A DNA stretch of 64,000 bases from Massilia varians (lineage in GTDB: Bacteria > Pseudomonadota > Gammaproteobacteria > Burkholderiales > Burkholderiaceae_D). The notes below the pieces were generated by a model. That model worked only from the letters and a program-made list of their open reading frames with translations. It ran no database searches and was not told the DNA's origin. Shown one piece after another: positions 37,411-48,637 of the stretch. The position numbers and the translations under genes are program-made. The DNA is taken from positions 248,001 to 312,000 of the forward strand of contig NZ_AP026966.1 of the NCBI RefSeq assembly GCF_027923905.1, given 5' to 3'. The first letter of the stretch is position 1. Each line of letters begins with the position of its first letter.

Positions 37411-38174
37411 AGCGGCCTTGCCGCCAGATCCCGGCACACGCGCCGGGTGATGTGAAAAGCATACTGCGCGGCCACCGATGTCACGAATCGCATGAAATCG
37501 GTGGCCGCGTTTTCGTTGGCATTGTCGGACACGGTGCGGATCACGGCGCAGGGCACGTCCAGCTCGTAGCACACCTGCGCCACCGCAGCGCCTTCCATTT
37601 CGACCGCCACCAGGCCGGGAAGGGCGTCGTTGAGCGCGTTCAGGGCCAGGCGATCGTTCATGAACTGGTCGCCGCTCGCCACCAGGCCGCGGTGCACGCG
37701 CGGCTGCGCCAGGCGGAATTCGCGCCGCTCTCCCTCGCTGATCGCGCTGTGCAAGTCCTGCTCGAGGAAGTCATGGGCCGCGCGCGACAGGCGCATCGAC
37801 AGCTGCGGGTCGGGCTGGAAGTGGGTCAGGCCGGTGAGCGGCACCTCGAAACGGGGAAACAGCGGACTGGCATCCATGTCGTGCTGGACCAGGGCTTCCG
37901 CGACCACGATATCGCCGACCTGCACCGTTTTATCCCCGGCGCCGCCCACGCCGGTAAAGAGGATGTGGGTAACTCCGAACTTCTCCACAAGCGTGGTGGC
38001 TGTCATCGCCGCCGCAACCTTGCCAATTCGCGACAGAACGCACACAGCGTCGATTTCCCACAGCTTCCCTGCCCAGTACTCACGCTTGCCATGGATGAGC
38101 TTGGAGGGCCCTTTCAAGGCTTCCACGAGCCCCAGCTGTTCTTCGTACAGCGCGCTGATGATTCCCAGTCGCAT
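37407..38174 (-). CDS. 5'-methylthioadenosine/S-adenosylhomocysteine nucleosidase family protein
   Basis: 255 residues. It opens MRLGIISALYEEQLGLVEAL and has SRIGKVAAAMTATTLVEKFG and LFTGVGGAGDKTVQVGDIVVA, the phosphorylase/nucleosidase fold. The catalytic Glu pair is in AVEMEGAAVAQVCYE and the catalytic Asp in IRTVSDNANE, both near the C-terminus. This enzyme hydrolyses the glycosidic bond of MTA and SAH, feeding methionine salvage and detoxification. It is slightly longer than the Escherichia coli enzyme (232 residues), owing to an extra stretch in the middle. Confidence 0.93.
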   Translation of the reverse strand: MRLGIISALYEEQLGLVEALKGPSKLIHGKREYWAGKLWEIDAVCVLSRIGKVAAAMTATTLVEKFGVTHILFTGVGGAGDKTVQVGDIVVAEALVQHDMDASPLFPRFEVPLTGLTHFQPDPQLSMRLSRAAHDFLEQDLHSAISEGERREFRLAQPRVHRGLVASGDQFMNDRLALNALNDALPGLVAVEMEGAAVAQVCYELDVPCAVIRTVSDNANENAATDFMRFVTSVAAQYAFHITRRVCRDLAARPL

Positions 38175-38201
38175 GTTTTCCTTGTTTTTATTGCGTTTTT
38201 G

Positions 38202-38648
38202 TTATGAAAGCAGCTTGCGGAAGTAGACCACGCGCTCGGTTTCCTCGAATCCGAGCGCCCGATGCATGGCATGGCTCGCCGTATTCTCGAGCAAGGCATC
38301 CGAGGCCATCTCGGTGCAGCCCTGTTTCCTGACCCACTGTTCCGCGGTTTGCACCAGCATGGCAGCGATTCCCTGCCGGCGGAAGGCCGGATCGACATAC
38401 AAACCTTCCAGGAAGCCGACAGGAGACGAGTTGGTGCCGTTGACGACATCCCCGCGCAGCGCGACTTCGATCAGTCCCTGGGGCTCTCCAAGGCTTGAAT
38501 AGGCGAGGAACTGTGCATAACGGCCGGGTTGTGCACACAGTTCCTGCATTTCCCGCAGGTGGTCGGCGCGCTGCGCAGGCCACAGGGCCATGCGCAGCTG
38601 CAGCCAGCCGGCTTGTTCAACGCTTGTGCACGGTTTGATCGAGCTCAT
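38202..38648 (-). CDS. AAC(6')-I-like aminoglycoside N-acetyltransferase (GNAT family)
   Basis: 148 residues, GNAT fold. It resembles chromosomal AAC(6')-I enzymes in many positions: WLQLRMALWP near the N-terminus, VNGTNSSPVGFLEGLYVDP, the acetyl-CoA loop RRQGIAAMLVQTAEQW (R-x-x-G-x-A), the LLENTASHAMHRALGF segment and ETERVVYFRK at the end. AAC(6') enzymes acetylate tobramycin, amikacin and relatives. It has its own start with the origin-like region upstream. Resistance is not shown by sequence alone; the natural substrate could differ. Confidence 0.8.
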   Translation of the reverse strand: MSSIKPCTSVEQAGWLQLRMALWPAQRADHLREMQELCAQPGRYAQFLAYSSLGEPQGLIEVALRGDVVNGTNSSPVGFLEGLYVDPAFRRQGIAAMLVQTAEQWVRKQGCTEMASDALLENTASHAMHRALGFEETERVVYFRKLLS

Positions 38649-38780
38649 GAGGCTGCCAGATTTTACGCTTGAGTGTCCATTTTGCTTGTCTTACGAGCGT
38701 GAGGCCAGTGAAAACCTGATTTTCCTGGTCTTTTCCGGCTTTTCTGGCAGCGCAGTGCTTCACGCTTTTAGTTAACTAAA

Positions 38781-38990
38781 GTTTGTATATAAACTGGTAG
38801 TAGATAGTAAACGCGGCTTCTTCTGTTGATAAGTCAGGTTTACTCCACAGCATCAATGACTTGCAGACGCGTTTACCGGCTGAACAAAGCCTGTGTGAAG
38901 TTTGAACGAAACGTGGACAGTTTTCGCGCGAAGCAGAAATGGTCGCGTTCTGCACATACGATCCTGTGGATATGCCTCGGCTTTTCCACA
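38781..38990. repeat. origin module A
   Basis: Begins GTTTGTATATAAAC, then TGGTAGTAGATAGTAAACGC, then TGTTGATAA (38824-38832, one mismatch to a DnaA box). A GTTTACCGGCTGAACAA block is at its centre. The end has TGTGGATAT (38965-38973) and TTTTCCACA (38982-38990), inverted DnaA-box-like sites 8 bp apart. Confidence 0.8.
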
Positions 38991-39180
38991 AGCGCATCGC
39001 CAACAATGCCTTGAAGAGCGGTTCGACAGGCGATCTGCAGGCAGATGGTGGTCCAGGGAGGATCCTGGCCGACGATGTTGGAGGAGCAGACGGCACACTG
39101 CCTTGGTGATCAACAGGTGGTGGAGCCGGGCGCGGTCGCGACTGGATTCGCGCTGTTGGTTTTGTTGTTGTAGTAAACAA

Positions 39181-39390
39181 GTTTGTATACAAACTGGTAG
39201 TAATAGTAAACGCGCATGTTGCTGTGGATAACAAAGGTTTTCTCCACAACGTCAATGGTTTACGGTCGCGTTAACCGGCTGAACAAGGCTTGTTTTAGAA
39301 CTGGATGAAACTTGGACTATATTTTGGTGGACCGGGTTAACCGGCTGTTCTACACATTCGATCCTGTGGATATCCCAGAGGTTTTCCACA
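39181..39390. repeat. origin module B
   Basis: Begins GTTTGTATACAAAC, a perfect palindrome, then TGGTAGTAATAGTAAACGCG, then TGTGGATAA (39223-39231), a perfect DnaA box in reverse. A GTTAACCGGCTGAACAA block follows. The end has TGTGGATAT (39365-39373) and TTTTCCACA (39382-39390), the same as module A with identical offsets of 184 and 201 from the module start. It starts exactly 400 bp after module A. Confidence 0.82.
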
Positions 39391-39607
39391 GATGAGGTCA
39401 AAATTTGCTGGTTTGCGCGTTTTCCAGGCCGCAGACTTGCAGGTGCGCGTGAACATGCTGGCAGAATCCGGAGAGCGGCGCTCAGGGTATGGCCGCGATA
39501 GTCACGCTGTGGTCGACCCTTGCTACCGTCTGTTGATCGCGAGCCGGTCCGGGTTTGCAGCTGAAGCTGGCAAGCAGGTCGCAGGTGTCGACAGACTGCG
39601 ACGGCGG

Positions 39608-39661
39608 CTAAAAAATTTCGAAAAAATTTTCTACAGCTTTACAATCAAAGTTTGTATACAA
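39608..39661. other. AT-rich tract next to origin module C (duplex-unwinding candidate)
   Basis: CTAAAAAATTTCGAAAAAATTTT-type sequence runs into CTACAGCTTTACAATCAAAG and then GTTTGTATACAA. It is the most A+T-rich stretch in the origin candidate and lies on the side of the trinucleotide run opposite the DnaA box, where strand opening is expected. Confidence 0.55.
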
Positions 39662-39862
39662 CGGTAGTAGTAGTGGTTAACGGCGGCCCTTTTCTGTGGA
39701 CAAGGCGGTTAACGGCTGAAAAATCATTGGTTTACGCACCGTATAAGGCAGTGCAACACTGGCGCGTGGAGACTGCCTGAAAACTGGACAAGTTTTTGGG
39801 CACCCATTAATTCTCCGGTTCTGCACAAAACAGACCTGTGGATATCAAGAGGCTTATCCACA
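39650..39862. repeat. origin module C
   Basis: Begins GTTTGTATACAACGGTAGTA with three clean TAG repeats (GGTAGTAGTAGTGG), then TGTGGACAA (39695-39703, one mismatch to a DnaA box), and a shortened GTTAACGGCTGAA block. The end has TGTGGATAT (39837-39845) and a perfect TTATCCACA (39854-39862), inverted with the same 8-bp spacing. It is the most diverged copy. Confidence 0.78.
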
Positions 39863-39929
39863 GAGGGCCCCTAGACTTCCGTTTACGATCTGGTAAGCTT
39901 GCCTCAACGAATGACGAACGGAGGCTGTG

Positions 39930-40052
39930 GTGGATCTCGATGCGCTGTTTCGTAAGCCTTTGCCACGTGAACCGAAGTGCGGCGGTTCGCGTTCGTTCGG
40001 CCATGACAGTCGTGGCGACGGCGGCAATGGCAACGGCGTGCGGGAACGCTAG
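39930..40052 (+). CDS. possible 40-aa small protein beside the origin candidate
   Basis: A GTG-started frame with GGAGG about 5 nt upstream encodes a basic, Gly-rich peptide, starting VDLDALFRKPLPREPKCGGS and ending NGNGVRER. It ends 2 bp before the first codon of the GMC gene. I know no homologue. The ribosome-binding site and the sudden return of coding-like composition are the only support. Confidence 0.3.
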   Translation: MDLDALFRKPLPREPKCGGSRSFGHDSRGDGGNGNGVRER

Positions 40053-40054
40053 CC

Positions 40055-41643
40055 TTGGAATCTGCCGGCCAGTACGACTACATCATCGTTGGCGGCGGCA
40101 CCTCCGGCTGTGTGCTCGCCAACCGGCTGAGCCGTAATCCGAAGATCGAGGTCTTGCTGGTGGAGGCGGGCGGTCGTGACGATTACCTGTGGATCCACAT
40201 CCCGGTCGGCTACCTGCATTGCATCGGCAATCCGCGCACGGACTGGCTGTTTCGCACCGAGGCCGATCCCGGCCTGCACGGCAGGGCGCTGATCTACCCG
40301 CGGGGCAAGGTGCTGGGCGGTAGTTCGTCGATCAACGGCATGATCTACATGCGTGGCCAGCCGGCGGATTATGCGCGCTGGGCGACGCTGACCGGCGACG
40401 ATTCCTGGTGCTGGGAGCAGGTGCTGCCGCTGTTCAAGCGCAGCGAAGACCACTACCTGGGGGCCAGCGAACTGCATGGCGCCGGCGGCGAATGGCGTGT
40501 CGAAAAGCAGCGGCTGTCGTGGCAGATCCTCGACGCGTTTCGTGAAGCGGCAGCCGAAACCGGTATCCCGAAGATCGATGATCTGAACGCCGGCCGAGGT
40601 GAAGGTTCCGCTTATTTCGACGTCAACCAGCGGCGCGGCATCCGCCTGAATACGGCGAAAGCTTTCCTGAAACCGGCGGCGAAACGGCCCAATTTAACCA
40701 TCATGACCGGCAAGCGAAGCTGTGCACCGGCATTCAGTTCAGCGGCGGCGGCCACATGTACAGGGCGACGGCGCAGCGCGAGACCCTGTTGGCGGCCGGG
40801 GCGGTGGGTTCGCCGCAGCTCCTGCAGCTGTCCGGCATCGGCGCGGCGGAAGATCTGCAGCGCCACGGCATCGCGTCGGTGATGGACTTGCCCGGCGTCG
40901 GCGCCAACCTGCAGGACCACCTGCAGCTGCGCATGATCTTCAAGGTCCAGGGCGTGCGGACCCTGAATACGCGCGCCACCAACTGGTTCGGCAAGACGCT
41001 GATCGGACTGGAATATGCGTGTTTCCGCAGCGGACCAATGTCGATGGCGCCATCGCAACTGGGCGCATTTGCCAAGTCCTCGCCGGATCTGGCGGCGGCG
41101 AATCTGCAGTACCACGTCCAGCCTCTGTCGCTGGACAAGTTCGGCGATCCGCTGCACCGCTTCCCGGCATTTACCGCGAGCGTCTGCAACCTGCAGCCGA
41201 CATCAACCGGGCAGGTCGGTATCGTATCCGCCGACAGTTACGCGCCGCCCAGGATCACGCCGAACTACCTGAGTACCGAGGCCGACCGCACAACCGCCGC
41301 CGCGGCGCTGGCATTGACGCGCCGGATCGTGGCGGCGCCGGCACTGGCGAAATACCGCCCCGAAGAGTTCATGCCCGGCCCGCAATACCAGAGCGAAGAA
41401 GAACTGGCCCATGCGGCAGGTCTGGTCGGCACCACGATTTTCCATCCGGTCGGCACCTGCCGCATGGGACGGGCAGATGATCCGCTGGCCGTGGTCGACA
41501 GCCGCCTGCGGGTACGCGGCGTCGAAAAATTGCGCGTGGTCGATGCCTCGATCATGCCCTTTATAACATCCGGGAACACCAATTCCCCGACCATCATGAT
41601 TGCGGAAAAAGCCGCGCAGGACATCCTCGCGCACCAGGCTTGA
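40055..41643 (+). pseudogene. GMC-family (choline dehydrogenase-like) oxidoreductase, frameshifted
   Basis: The first frame, from a TTG at 40055, encodes the FAD-binding half: YDYIIVGGGTSGCVLANRLS, VLLVEAGG and the GMC signature GKVLGGSSSINGMIYMRG. After NLTIMTGK near 40715 the phase is lost. From about 40720 another frame gives CTGIQFSGGGHMYRATAQRE, LLAAGAVGSPQLLQLSGIG and, at the end, TTIFHPVGTCRMGR with the catalytic His and the closing SGNTNSPTIMIAEKAA. Around the break a few residues also seem missing. Intact it would be about 530 residues and oxidise an alcohol. Either a pseudogene or a sequence error. Confidence 0.8.
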
Positions 41644-44088: not shown

Positions 44089-44104
44089 TGTTCCACGTGA
44101 AACA
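44089..44104. promoter_or_regulatory. parS: parS site 1 (TGTTCCACGTGAAACA)
   Basis: Exact match to the ParB-binding consensus TGTTNCACGTGAAACA. It begins 1 bp after the TSUP stop codon and lies 2.9 kb before parA. Confidence 0.93.
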
Positions 44105-44277: not shown

Positions 44278-46209
44278 ATGCTATTTCCAACTGAATTCGA
44301 CGTCATCGTCGTCGGCGGCGGCCATGCCGGTACCGAGGCTGCGCTCGCGTCGGCACGCACCGGTCAGAAGACCCTGCTGCTGACCCATAATATCGAAACT
44401 CTCGGCGCCATGTCCTGCAATCCATCGATTGGTGGCATCGGCAAAGGCCACCTGGTCAAGGAAGTCGATGCGCTCGGCGGCGCCATGGCGATCGCCACCG
44501 ACGAGTCGGGCATCCAGTTCCGTATCCTGAATTCGTCCAAGGGCCCGGCCGTACGTGCCACCCGCGCCCAGGCCGACCGCCTCCTGTACAAGCAGGCGAT
44601 CCGCTCGCGTCTGGAAAACCAGCCGAACCTGTGGCTGTTCCAGCAGGCCGTGGAAGACCTGATGCTGGAAGGCGAGCGCGTGGTGGGCGCCGTCACCCAG
44701 GTCGGACTGCAGTTCCGCGCCCGCGCCGTGGTCCTCACCGCCGGCACCTTCCTGGACGGGAAGATCCACGTCGGCCTGCAGAATTATTCGGGCGGCCGCG
44801 CCGGCGATCCGCCCGCGGTCTCGCTGTCGAGCCGCCTGAAGGAACTCAAGCTGCCGCAAGGCCGCCTGAAGACCGGCACGCCGCCGCGCATCGACGGCCG
44901 CAGCATCGACTTCTCGGTGCTGTCCGAGCAGCCGGGCGACCTCGATCCGGTACCGGTGTTTTCAAGCATGGGCAACGCCGCCATGCACCCGCGCCAGGTG
45001 CCGTGCTGGGTTACCCACACCAATGAGAAAACCCACGACATCATCCGCGGCGGCCTGGACCGCAGCCCGATGTACACCGGCGTGATCGAAGGCGTGGGCC
45101 CGCGTTACTGCCCCTCGATCGAAGACAAGATCCACCGCTTCGCATCGAAAGCGTCGCACCAGATCTTCCTGGAGCCGGAAGGATTGACCACCAACGAGTT
45201 CTACCCGAACGGGATCTCGACCAGCCTGCCGTTCGACGTGCAGCTGGCACTGGTGCGTTCGATGCGCGGCATGGAGAACGCCTTCATCCTGCGCCCCGGC
45301 TACGCGATCGAGTACGACTACTACGATCCGCGCGGCCTGAAGGCCTCGCTGGAAACCAAGGCGATCAAGGGCCTGTTCTTCGCCGGCCAGATCAATGGCA
45401 CCACCGGTTACGAAGAAGCGGCGGCGCAAGGCCTGCTGGCCGGCCTGAACGCCGCGCTGCAGACCCAGGGCAAGGACGCCTGGACCCCGGGCCGCTCGGA
45501 AGCCTATCTGGGCGTGCTGGTCGACGACCTCACCACCCAGGGCGTGGCCGAACCCTACCGCATGTTCACCAGCCGCGCCGAATACCGCCTGTCGCTGCGC
45601 GAAGACAATGCCGACATGCGCCTGACCGAGATCGGCCGCAAGCTCGGCATCGTCGGCGACGCCCAGTGGGCCGCCTTCGAGCACAAGCGCGAATCGGTGG
45701 CCCGCGAACTCGAGCGCCTGCGCTCGACCTGGGTCAATCCGCGCATCCTTGCCGCTGCCGAATCCGAGCGCGTGGTGGGGCAGGCGATCGAGCGCGAGTA
45801 CAACCTGGCCGACCTGCTGCGCCGCCCGGGCGTTGCCTACGACACCCTGATGACGATGACGGGCGCCGAGGGCCAGCCCCTGGCCGGCCCCGGCGTGGAA
45901 GACCCGGCGGTGAAGGAGCAGATCGAGATCCAGCTGAAGTACGCTGGCTACATCGACCGCCAGGCGCGCGAGGTGGAGCGTCACGACCATTACGAGAACC
46001 TCAAGCTGCCCGACAACCTGAACTACCTGGAGATCCAGGCCCTGTCGTTCGAGGTGCGCCAGAAGCTCGACAAGCAGCGTCCGGAAACCCTGGGCCAGGC
46101 CTCGCGCATCTCGGGCGTCACCCCGGCCGCGATCTCGCTGCTGCTGGTGCACCTGAAAAAGCGCGGCGCCAAGGGCTTTACCAATGCGCCGCTGGAGCAG
46201 GCTGAATGA
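44278..46209 (+). CDS. mnmG: tRNA uridine-5-carboxymethylaminomethyl modification enzyme MnmG (GidA)
   Basis: 643 residues, full length. MnmG with MnmE adds the cmnm5 group at U34 of tRNAs using FAD, NADH and methylene-THF. The FAD motif is [19 protein letters not shown] (about 9-27). Other conserved blocks are [35 protein letters not shown] and [21 protein letters not shown]. The C-terminal MnmE-binding domain has [32 protein letters not shown]. It starts the mnmG-rsmG-parA-parB row, close to origins in many bacteria, and overlaps rsmG by 4 nt. Confidence 0.97.
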
Positions 46210-46853
46210 AATATTTTGATCGCGCCGCGCTGGCGCTGGTGCTGGCCGACGGCATCCAGGAGATGCATCTCGACGTAACCCAGGCACAGCAGGACAAGCT
46301 GCTCGACTACCTGGCGCTGATGAACAAGTGGAACAGCGTCTACAACCTGACGTCGTTGCGCGACCCGATGCAGATGGTGACCCATCATCTGCTCGACTCT
46401 CTCGCGGCGGTGCCGGCCTTTGCCGGAGCACGCAATGTGCTGGACGTCGGGGCAGGGGGCGGATTGCCGGGCGTGGTGCTGGCCATCTGTCGTCCCGACA
46501 TGAAATTGTCGATGATCGATACGGTCCACAAGAAAACCGCCTTCCTCAAGCAGGTCAAAGCGGAGCTGGACCTGGCCAACGTCACCGTGCACACCATGAA
46601 AGTGCAGGAGCTGGAAGTGAGCGACAAATTCGACGTGATCACGTCCCGCGCTTTCGCCGACCTGAGCGACTTCCTGGAGTGGTCCGGGCACCTGCTGGCC
46701 GAGGGCGGCAAATTCATCGCCCTGAAAGGCACGGCGCCGGCGCAGGAGCAGGAGCGCATACCGGCGCAATGGAAAATAAGCGGTTTGCAGCCGCTGCAGG
46801 TTCCGAGGCTGGGCGCGGAGCGTCACCTCATATTCGTCGAGCGATCGGCATAA
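46206..46853 (+). CDS. rsmG: 16S rRNA (guanine-527-N7)-methyltransferase RsmG (GidB)
   Basis: 215 residues. RsmG makes m7G527 in 16S rRNA; its loss gives low-level streptomycin resistance. Typical blocks are [31 protein letters not shown], the SAM-binding [28 protein letters not shown], and [15 protein letters not shown]. It overlaps mnmG by 4 nt (ATGA) and is translationally coupled to it. An AT-rich gap separates it from parA. Confidence 0.96.
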
Positions 46854-46961: not shown

Positions 46962-47732
46962 ATGGCGAAGATTTTTTGCGTAGCGAACCAGAAGGGCGGG
47001 GTCGGCAAGACCACCACCAGCGTGAACCTGTCGGCAGGCCTGGCCAAGCTGGACCAGCGCGTGCTGCTGGTCGACCTCGACCCGCAGGGCAATGCCACCA
47101 TGGGGGCGGGCATCAACAAGGCTTCGCTCGAAGGCTCGATCTACCAGGTGCTGCTGGGCGAGCTCGACGTGGCGGCGGCGCGCCAGCGCTCCGAGTCGGG
47201 GCGCTTCGACGTGCTGCCGGCCAACCGCGAGCTGGCGGGCGCCGAAGTCGAGATGGTGGCGCTCGAGAACCGCGAACGCCGCCTGAAGGAGGCGCTGGCC
47301 GCGGTGGACAAGGACTACGACTTCATCCTGGTCGACTGCCCGCCGGCGCTGTCGCTGCTCACGCTCAACGGCCTGTGCGCGGCGCACGGGGTGATCATCC
47401 CGATGCAGTGCGAGTACTACGCGCTCGAGGGCCTGTCCGACCTGGTCAACACCATCAAGAAGGTGCACGCCAACCTGAACACCGACCTGCGCATCATCGG
47501 CCTGTTGCGGGTGATGTTCGATCCGCGCATGACGCTGTCGCAGCAGGTGTCGAGCCAGCTCGAGCAGCACTTCGGCGACAAGGTATTCAAGACCATCATC
47601 CCGCGCAACGTGCGCCTGGCCGAGGCGCCTTCGTATGGCATGCCGGGCGTGGTGTTCGATCCGTCCTCGAAAGGCGCGCAGGCGTACATCGCCTTCGGCG
47701 CCGAGATGGTCGAGCGCATCAAGAGCATGTGA
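46962..47732 (+). CDS. parA: chromosome partitioning ATPase ParA (Soj)
   Basis: 256 residues, chromosomal type with no N-terminal DNA-binding extension. The deviant Walker A is KGGVGKTTTSVNLSAGLA (starting about residue 11), with Walker A' LLVDLDPQGNATMG and Walker B FILVDCPPALSLLTLN. ParA binds DNA nonspecifically as an ATP dimer and moves ParB-parS complexes. It is followed by parB after 32 bp. Three parS-like sites lie 2.8 kb upstream. Confidence 0.96.
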   Translation: MAKIFCVANQKGGVGKTTTSVNLSAGLAKLDQRVLLVDLDPQGNATMGAGINKASLEGSIYQVLLGELDVAAARQRSESGRFDVLPANRELAGAEVEMVALENRERRLKEALAAVDKDYDFILVDCPPALSLLTLNGLCAAHGVIIPMQCEYYALEGLSDLVNTIKKVHANLNTDLRIIGLLRVMFDPRMTLSQQVSSQLEQHFGDKVFKTIIPRNVRLAEAPSYGMPGVVFDPSSKGAQAYIAFGAEMVERIKSM

Positions 47733-47764: not shown

Positions 47765-48637
47765 ATGGCAACCAAAAAACTCAAAGGCCTCGGACGCGGC
47801 CTCGACGCACTGCTCGGCGGCGACAGCCAGCCGGCCCCGGTGAAAGCGCCCTCGTCGCTGCCGATCACCCAGGTCCAGGCCGGCAAGTACCAGCCGCGTA
47901 CCCGCATGGACGAAACCTCGCTCAGCGAGCTGGCCGCCTCGATCAAGACCCAGGGCATTATGCAGCCGGTGCTGGTACGTCCGCTGGGGGAGGGGGCCGC
48001 CGTCCCGTACGAGATCATCGCCGGCGAGCGCCGCTTCCGCGCCGCCCAGATGGCCGGCCTGGAAGAGATCCCGGTGCTGGTGCGCGAAGTGGACGACCAG
48101 TCGGCCGCGGCCATGGCCCTGATCGAGAACATCCAGCGCGAAGACCTGAACCCGCTCGAAGAAGCGCAGGGCATCCAGCGCCTGATCAACGACTTTCAGT
48201 TCACCCACGAGCAGGCGGCGGCAAGCGTCGGCCGTTCGCGCAGCGCCGTGTCGAACCTGCTGCGCCTGATCAACCTGGCTCAGCCGGTCCAGACCATGCT
48301 GATGGCCGGCGACATCGACATGGGCCATGCCCGCGCCCTGCTGGCGGTCGAGAGCGCCCACCAGATCACGCTGGCCAACCAGGTGATCGCCAAGCGCCTG
48401 TCGGTACGCGAGACCGAGAAGCTGGTGGCGCGCGCCCTCGAGGAGCAGTCGAGCCCGGCGACACCGGCGCGTGCCAAGGACAAGCCTGGCGACATCGTGC
48501 GCCTGGAAGAGGAACTGTCGGACAAGCTCGCCACCCCGGTGATGTTCAAGATGGGCGCGAAAGGCAAGGGGCAGTTGATCATCGACTTCGCCGACCTCGA
48601 CATCCTGGACGGCGTGCTGGCGCGCCTGCGCGCCTGA
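47765..48637 (+). CDS. parB: chromosome partitioning protein ParB (Spo0J)
   Basis: 290 residues. It opens KLKGLGRGLDALLGGDSQP, the N-terminal ParA-interacting motif. The CTPase/sulphiredoxin-like part has LAASIKTQGIMQPVLVRPL, then YEIIAGERRFRAAQMAGL with the GERR(F/Y)R clamp motif, and ALIENIQREDLNPLEEAQG. The helix-turn-helix (HEQAAASVGRSRSAVSNLLRL) binds parS. A C-terminal dimer domain has GKGQLIIDFADLDILDGVLARL. Confidence 0.96.
   Translation: MATKKLKGLGRGLDALLGGDSQPAPVKAPSSLPITQVQAGKYQPRTRMDETSLSELAASIKTQGIMQPVLVRPLGEGAAVPYEIIAGERRFRAAQMAGLEEIPVLVREVDDQSAAAMALIENIQREDLNPLEEAQGIQRLINDFQFTHEQAAASVGRSRSAVSNLLRLINLAQPVQTMLMAGDIDMGHARALLAVESAHQITLANQVIAKRLSVRETEKLVARALEEQSSPATPARAKDKPGDIVRLEEELSDKLATPVMFKMGAKGKGQLIIDFADLDILDGVLARLRA

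Follow-up and report, generated by a model that had tools for sequence, protein, structure and literature searches.

The chromosome of Massilia varians is a single contig of 5,575,375 bp, of which the 64,000-nucleotide stretch analysed here (the window) covers bases 248,001–312,000. At window positions 38767–39863 lies a 1.1-kb region that contains three paralogous modules of about 225 bp (A, B and C), all in the same orientation and separated by spacers of 180 bp (A–B) and 245 bp (B–C). A repeat, AAAGTTTGTATATAA or a closely similar copy, starts at 38778, 39178 and 39647; the three repeated modules of the original prediction are thus real, and their boundaries were set by profile (HMM) matches. 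To the right, a parS-like site is followed by mnmG, rsmG, parA and parB, markers near which bacterial origins often lie, and dnaA, correctly noted as absent from the window, is found at base 1 of the contig, 287 kb from the modules. The features, in window coordinates, are:

38767–38990, plus strand: module A, with an AT-rich edge, AGTTTGTATATAAACT (38780–38795), a TAG-type run (38798–38810), an inner box pair, an IHF-like core and a distal pair
38762–38811, strandless: candidate unwinding edge of module A, its least stable 50-mer, 6th lowest in the 64-kb window
38824–38832, minus strand: inner (R1-like) DnaA box of module A, TTATCAACA, one mismatch; partner at 38841–38849, plus strand, two mismatches
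38853–38862, plus strand: IHF-like core TCAN5TT of module A, 20 bp past the inner box
38965–38990: distal convergent DnaA box pair of module A, 38965–38973 (minus) and 38982–38990 (plus), one mismatch each
39171–39392, plus strand: module B, on the plan of A, with AGTTTGTATACAAACT (39180–39195), four triplets TAGTAATAGTAA (39198–39209) and a 13-bp gap to a perfect DnaA box
39160–39209, strandless: candidate unwinding edge of module B, its least stable 50-mer, 7th lowest in the window
39223–39231, minus strand: inner DnaA box of module B, TTATCCACA, perfect; partner at 39240–39248, plus strand, one mismatch
39252–39261, plus strand: IHF-like core TCAN5TT of module B, 20 bp past the inner box
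39365–39390: distal convergent DnaA box pair of module B, 39365–39373 (minus) and 39382–39390 (plus), one mismatch each
39638–39863, plus strand: module C, on the plan of A with one inner box only, three TAG triplets (39665–39673) and a perfect distal box TTATCCACA
39608–39657, strandless: candidate unwinding edge of module C, its least stable 50-mer, 5th lowest in the window
39695–39703, minus strand: inner DnaA box of module C, TTGTCCACA, one mismatch
39724–39733, plus strand: IHF-like core TCAN5TT of module C, 20 bp past the inner box
39837–39862: distal convergent DnaA box pair of module C, 39837–39845 (minus, one mismatch) and 39854–39862 (plus, perfect)
44089–44104, strandless: parS-like site, the sole chromosomal match with at most one mismatch, 4 kb from the modules
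44278–46209, plus strand: mnmG (gidA), followed by rsmG (46206–46853), parA (46962–47732) and parB (47765–48637), neighbours typical of an origin

Read from left to right, each module starts with an AT-rich, unstable edge that contains a GTATAY palindrome. A run of TAG/TAA-type triplets and an R1-like DnaA box (TGTGGATAA on the plus strand) follow, then a 20-bp step to TCAN5TT, a middle stretch and finally two convergent distal boxes that read TGTGGATAT...TTWTCCACA. All three modules have the elements predicted for each of them, namely an AT-rich palindrome, a TAG run and a distal pair of boxes. The single inner box that had also been predicted for each is correct for module C, at 39695–39703, and wrong for modules A and B, which have an inner pair each.

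The region had been called gene-free, and we found no convincing gene in it: the open reading frames that overlap it (38776–39255, minus strand, and 38902–39231, plus strand) matched no Pfam family, and the spacers are poorly conserved. Among the window and five near relatives, identity is 76–82% in the modules, compared with 47% and 35% in the two spacers and 31.5% in shuffled spacers. A search of 38000–40500 matched no Rfam family, which speaks against an RNA element, and a plasmid-borne element is unsupported, with zero matches in 72,556 plasmid records. A short GTG-started open frame, visible by eye at 39931–40053, lies between module C and the adjoining GMC oxidoreductase gene. The GMC gene itself is split over two frames (40055–41643), with GMC_oxred_N in 40055–40882 and the rest of the N domain plus GMC_oxred_C in 40756–41643; this split is a frameshift or a sequencing error.

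The 1.1-kb region contains ten DnaA boxes with at most one mismatch to TTATCCACA, compared with a mean of 0.08 per 1.1 kb. Across 15,629 windows from the 1.652 Mb sampled of the 5.575-Mb chromosome (30%), the maximum outside 285.6–288.0 kb was three such boxes; with up to two mismatches allowed, the region has 18 boxes and the best window elsewhere in the same sample has 9. Predicted duplex stability, calculated from nearest-neighbour energies, places module edges at three of the seven least stable 50-mer spots in the 64-kb window.

Among 61 genomes compared at the DNA level, module matches were found in all 37 members of the genus (the source genome included) and, weakly, in 1 of 24 genomes from other families. 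An HMM scan of the window and 29 genus loci, which were the best matches of the DNA search (7 genus genomes contributed no locus), found three modules in 30 of 30, with a weak reverse-strand match over a module in two loci (L104 and L105) left uncounted. At least four genus members have two modules (G002, G015, G029 and G171); G002 and G015 share contig places with M. solisilvae and M. agilis, and G029 with Massilia sp. TS11. In M. agilis (L281) and M. solisilvae (L283), two modules stand head to head, with 37 bp between their facing distal boxes, and a third was not found within the 3.2 kb examined; this pair is a natural inverted version of the origin.

The functional elements are conserved to different degrees across the 90 modules of the 30 scanned genomes. 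The inner box and both distal boxes have at most one mismatch in 90 of 90 modules, and TCAN5TT occurs in 89 of 90, always 20 bp from the inner box; the full IHF consensus, WATCAANNNNTTR, is exact in 16 of 90. Perfect inner boxes are most frequent at position B (29 of 30 genomes, with 21 for A and 14 for C), and perfect distal boxes at position C (30, with 6 for B and 0 for A). The inner partner box has mostly been lost from C, where it is kept in 7 of 30 genomes. Under the published DnaA-trio rule (at least three NAN triplets no more than 16 bp from a DnaA box; PMC8287927), 22 of the 90 modules qualify (4 at position A, 17 at B and 1 at C), as do 663 of 1,800 shuffled sequences (37%), so there is no enrichment; when TAG/TAA triplets were required, the counts were 18 of 90 and 78 of 1,800. 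The DnaA-trio label was therefore not upheld for all modules, as the strict rule selects them no more often than shuffled sequence, and within the window it selects module B only.

In a tree of the 90 modules, the position C copies form one clade (99) and the position A copies also group; the labels A, B and C require 3 changes on this tree (minimum 2; shuffled mean 42.8). Because modules group by position, the three must have diverged before these genomes did and have been inherited separately. Modules within one genome are on average 57% alike, and the mean pairwise identity per position across the 30 genomes is 66–67%, about equal for A, B and C. Judged by their sequences, the three copies are old, separately preserved copies of what appears to be a complete start unit.

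A sequence-only model built from 54 of the 90 modules extended the survey, giving counts for the family, the order and named relatives that are lower bounds (strict filters; part of the first-look candidates scored). The model matched 131 of 145 genomes of the host family, with one to four matches each, and found none in the other 14. Of 200 genomes drawn from the order, 68 were matched; 63 of these are outside the host family, and 51 of the 63 have a single match (hand count). By MnmG, the nearest named relatives of the source genome are Massilia. From 80 loci of named relatives, 45 were taken, 44 of them searchable; all 44 genomes have modules, 23 with three and 21 with two (hand count; 11 reverse-strand matches overlapping a module were left out), and they comprise Massilia, Telluria, Janthinobacterium, Duganella, Rugamonas, Pseudoduganella and a few others. 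The tandem-module plan that had been proposed is thus real and conserved. In the chromosome of M. varians, the model matched three places, all in the 1.1-kb region (15 of 271 first-look candidates scored).

With one dif-like site (three mismatches) taken as the opposite point of the chromosome, the two arms measure 2.71 and 2.87 Mb from the modules, compared with 3.00 and 2.58 Mb from dnaA. We searched 15 finished family genomes for 16S genes and dropped two whose module position was unlisted (G092 and G113); in the remaining 13, all 60 rRNA operons are directed away from the modules and 50 of the 60 away from contig base 1, counts that are not independent, as operons are clustered and genomes related, and for which most lengths were rounded and the terminus was set half way. 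One of the family genomes, G107, has dnaA at base 1, two rRNA operons at 199–210 kb that point towards dnaA, and modules at 363 kb; a GMC oxidoreductase gene comes directly after these modules and parS–mnmG 12 kb after them, much as in M. varians.

The indications from strand bias disagree with one another. GC skew, a check proposed beforehand with a minimum expected at about 39 kb of the window, proved weak, scattered across the sampled sequence and of no use for locating the origin. With KOPS (n = 270 in the sample), the best change-point is at 270 kb, positions from 260 to 290 kb are within 1.4 log units of it, and dnaA is 19.6 log units worse. With a wider oligomer set, the best-scoring strand switch falls at about 212 kb, with the modules (287 kb) 5.4 and dnaA 31.9 log units worse; this optimum is about 75 kb from the modules, and we counted it against the oriC reading. 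The merged oligomer skew has a nearly unskewed plateau from about 80 to 290 kb, and de novo skewed octamers have their minimum at 205 kb on a broad plateau. In G107, KOPS switch near 200 kb, with 9 forward and 18 reverse before and 23 and 6 after (hand sums). The KOPS-like strand bias switches 75–160 kb before the modules in both chromosomes, and the offset is perhaps a trace of a past relocation of the origin or of inversions nearby.

We weighed two other starting points against these data. Replication could begin at dnaA, at base 1 of the contig, with the modules as a relic. The contig does begin at this gene, one exact TTATCCACA box is visible by eye upstream of it, and the dnaA region was proposed as the origin in Herbaspirillum seropedicae (PMC3093359). 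Yet the same eye reading found no DnaA box in the dnaA–dnaN gap of M. varians, dnaA fits the oligomer skew far worse than the modules do (31.9 as against 5.4 log units from the optimum), the two rRNA operons of G107 oppose a start at dnaA and modules are kept throughout the genus (37 of 37 genomes), which leaves this alternative extremely improbable. A true start at another site 50–100 kb from the modules, at the oligomer-skew optimum, would explain the value of about 212 kb and the comparable displacement in G107. Against such a site, the model finds zero units outside the 1.1 kb, the contiguous sequence from 0 to 412 kb has no rival cluster (at best three boxes with at most one mismatch, or nine with at most two), KOPS alone favour 260–290 kb and there is hardly any skew on the plateau between about 80 and 290 kb. 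We regard a displaced start as quite unlikely. Elsewhere on the chromosome, six frames of 273 amino acids (at 1594493, 2095118, 2651184, 3066358, 3341910 and 5541504) have equal-scoring matches to the DnaA ATPase domain; these are probably the IstB-type helper of a multicopy insertion element.

The gap between dnaA and dnaN is the classical place of oriC. We examined what flanks the module unit at 16 loci, of which 13 are outside the host family; in 8 of the 16 it lies between dnaA and dnaN (L229, L231, L232, L234, L235, L237, L240 and L253). All eight gene pairs were confirmed by Pfam, and each of these genomes has a single model match. A second profile confirms seven of the eight; L253 reaches only 2.4 bits there and rests on its model E value of 2.2e-7. 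The occurrence of the unit in this gap suggests that it is the ordinary oriC of the order, which in the host family has moved and multiplied. In other lineages, the unit adjoins a heptosyltransferase gene (L228 and L236; L243 is similar by eye) or a LysR gene (L226; L227 and L230 are similar by eye), and the origin appears to have changed place several times within the order.

Loci of the datA and DARS type can likewise be described as dense DnaA boxes with an IHF-like core. The modules could then be a locus that titrates or recharges DnaA, with the origin elsewhere, as the skew optimum about 75 kb away would allow. The presence of the same unit in the dnaA–dnaN gap of eight related loci, the unstable edges, the adjoining parS and mnmG–parAB, the direction of the rRNA operons and the failure of the model search to find a second module set in the chromosome all argue against this explanation, to which we give very little credence. 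By contrast, the identity as oriC claimed in the original prediction is supported by the homology of the modules to the unit in the dnaA–dnaN gap, the rRNA direction, the parS and mnmG–parAB neighbours and the near-equal arms to the dif-like site. On this comparative sequence evidence, the region is very probably the chromosomal replication origin, made of three homologous units (probability about 0.88).

The element order and the 20-bp step are shared with oriC of Escherichia coli, and we therefore infer the same mode of working. DnaA would bind at the distal convergent pair and at the inner box, which adjoins the AT-rich edge, and IHF would bend the DNA at the conserved core between the inner and distal boxes. 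The joined DnaA oligomer could then melt the edge of AT-rich sequence and TAG triplets, where the helicase would be loaded. Because all three copies have been kept, the modules most likely act together as a single large platform for DnaA that opens at one or more of the three edges. Their similar conservation (66–67%) argues that all of them matter, and the differing losses of boxes argue that they divide the labour.

A variant of the three-unit oriC, narrower and with odds that overlap those of the broader reading, is that a single module opens (for example B, with its perfect inner box and intact triplets) and the other two are helper DnaA-binding arrays, a role suggested for oriC1 of Bacillus subtilis. 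The unequal distribution of perfect inner and distal boxes and the loss of the partner box across the 30 genomes are in line with such specialization, as is the restriction of strict DnaA-trios in the window to B, and in B. subtilis one of two origin parts opens (PMC13220808). Set against this are the unstable edges of all three modules in the window, the presence of the inner box in every module and of the fixed-spacing core in 89 of 90, and the near-equal conservation of A, B and C. We consider a single opening module a serious candidate, at somewhat less than even odds. More tentatively still, each module of the three-unit origin may be a self-sufficient replicator, giving a redundant set of two or three start units over about 1 kb, all kept by selection. 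In the course of the family's history, the unit has been relocated, multiplied and even turned around. If the modules are self-sufficient, two helicases could perhaps be loaded at different units, or initiation could survive the loss of one.

That the origin of many relatives is made of two or three complete units of ancient divergence amounts to a natural experiment on origin function. A multi-unit origin raises the questions of whether one unit is enough, how firing once per cycle is kept and why the copies are retained. The module model also provides candidate origins in 131 of 145 family genomes, a family in which the dnaA region has been taken for the origin in at least one genome paper (PMC3093359).

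Among known origins, that of E. coli K-12 (NC_000913.3, 3925744–3925975) has a similar layout. Aligned by inspection, it has an AT-rich edge, R1 (TGTGGATAA), the 20-bp step, TCAA at the IHF-like place and a distal TTATCCACA, and it likewise adjoins mnmG and lies away from dnaA (PMC13220808 for the distance from dnaA). It differs in having one unit rather than three, and TCAN5CT rather than TCAN5TT. The module profile does not match E. coli oriC significantly (best 5.2 bits, E = 0.36, inside oriC), so the likeness rests on order and spacing. The dnaA–dnaN origins of other families of the order contain a homologous unit, as one match beside dnaA rather than three at a distance of 287 kb.

With the DnaA-trio, or basal unwinding system (BUS), the modules share a triplet run beside a DnaA box. 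Module B has four triplets, 13 bp and a perfect box, and the published spacer peak is 10–13 bp (PMC8287927); modules A and C of the window differ in that the strict rule does not select them. On chromosome 1 of Cupriavidus metallidurans CH34, the predicted origin has a skew switch about 90 kb from dnaA and three perfect DnaA boxes in 213 nt, and repeated units go unmentioned in the accessible text of that source (PMC2864759).

Origins away from dnaA (in E. coli and, by prediction, in Cupriavidus) and origins in two parts are already known. As far as the available parts of PMC8235120 and PMC13220808 describe them, bacterial origins have one box cluster, or two with a single opening site in B. 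subtilis; within the open-licence literature on related or multipart origins, in the parts accessible, we came across no origin described as three complete units homologous to one another. The bipartite origins of B. subtilis and Helicobacter pylori resemble the present one in having more than one DnaA-box cluster at one origin, but their clusters flank dnaA and only one opens in B. subtilis (same sources). The modules do not belong to this class of two box clusters separated by dnaA, as dnaA lies 287 kb away. Unlike bipartite origins, the parts here are homologous to one another, each has an AT-rich edge of its own and dnaA is far from all of them.
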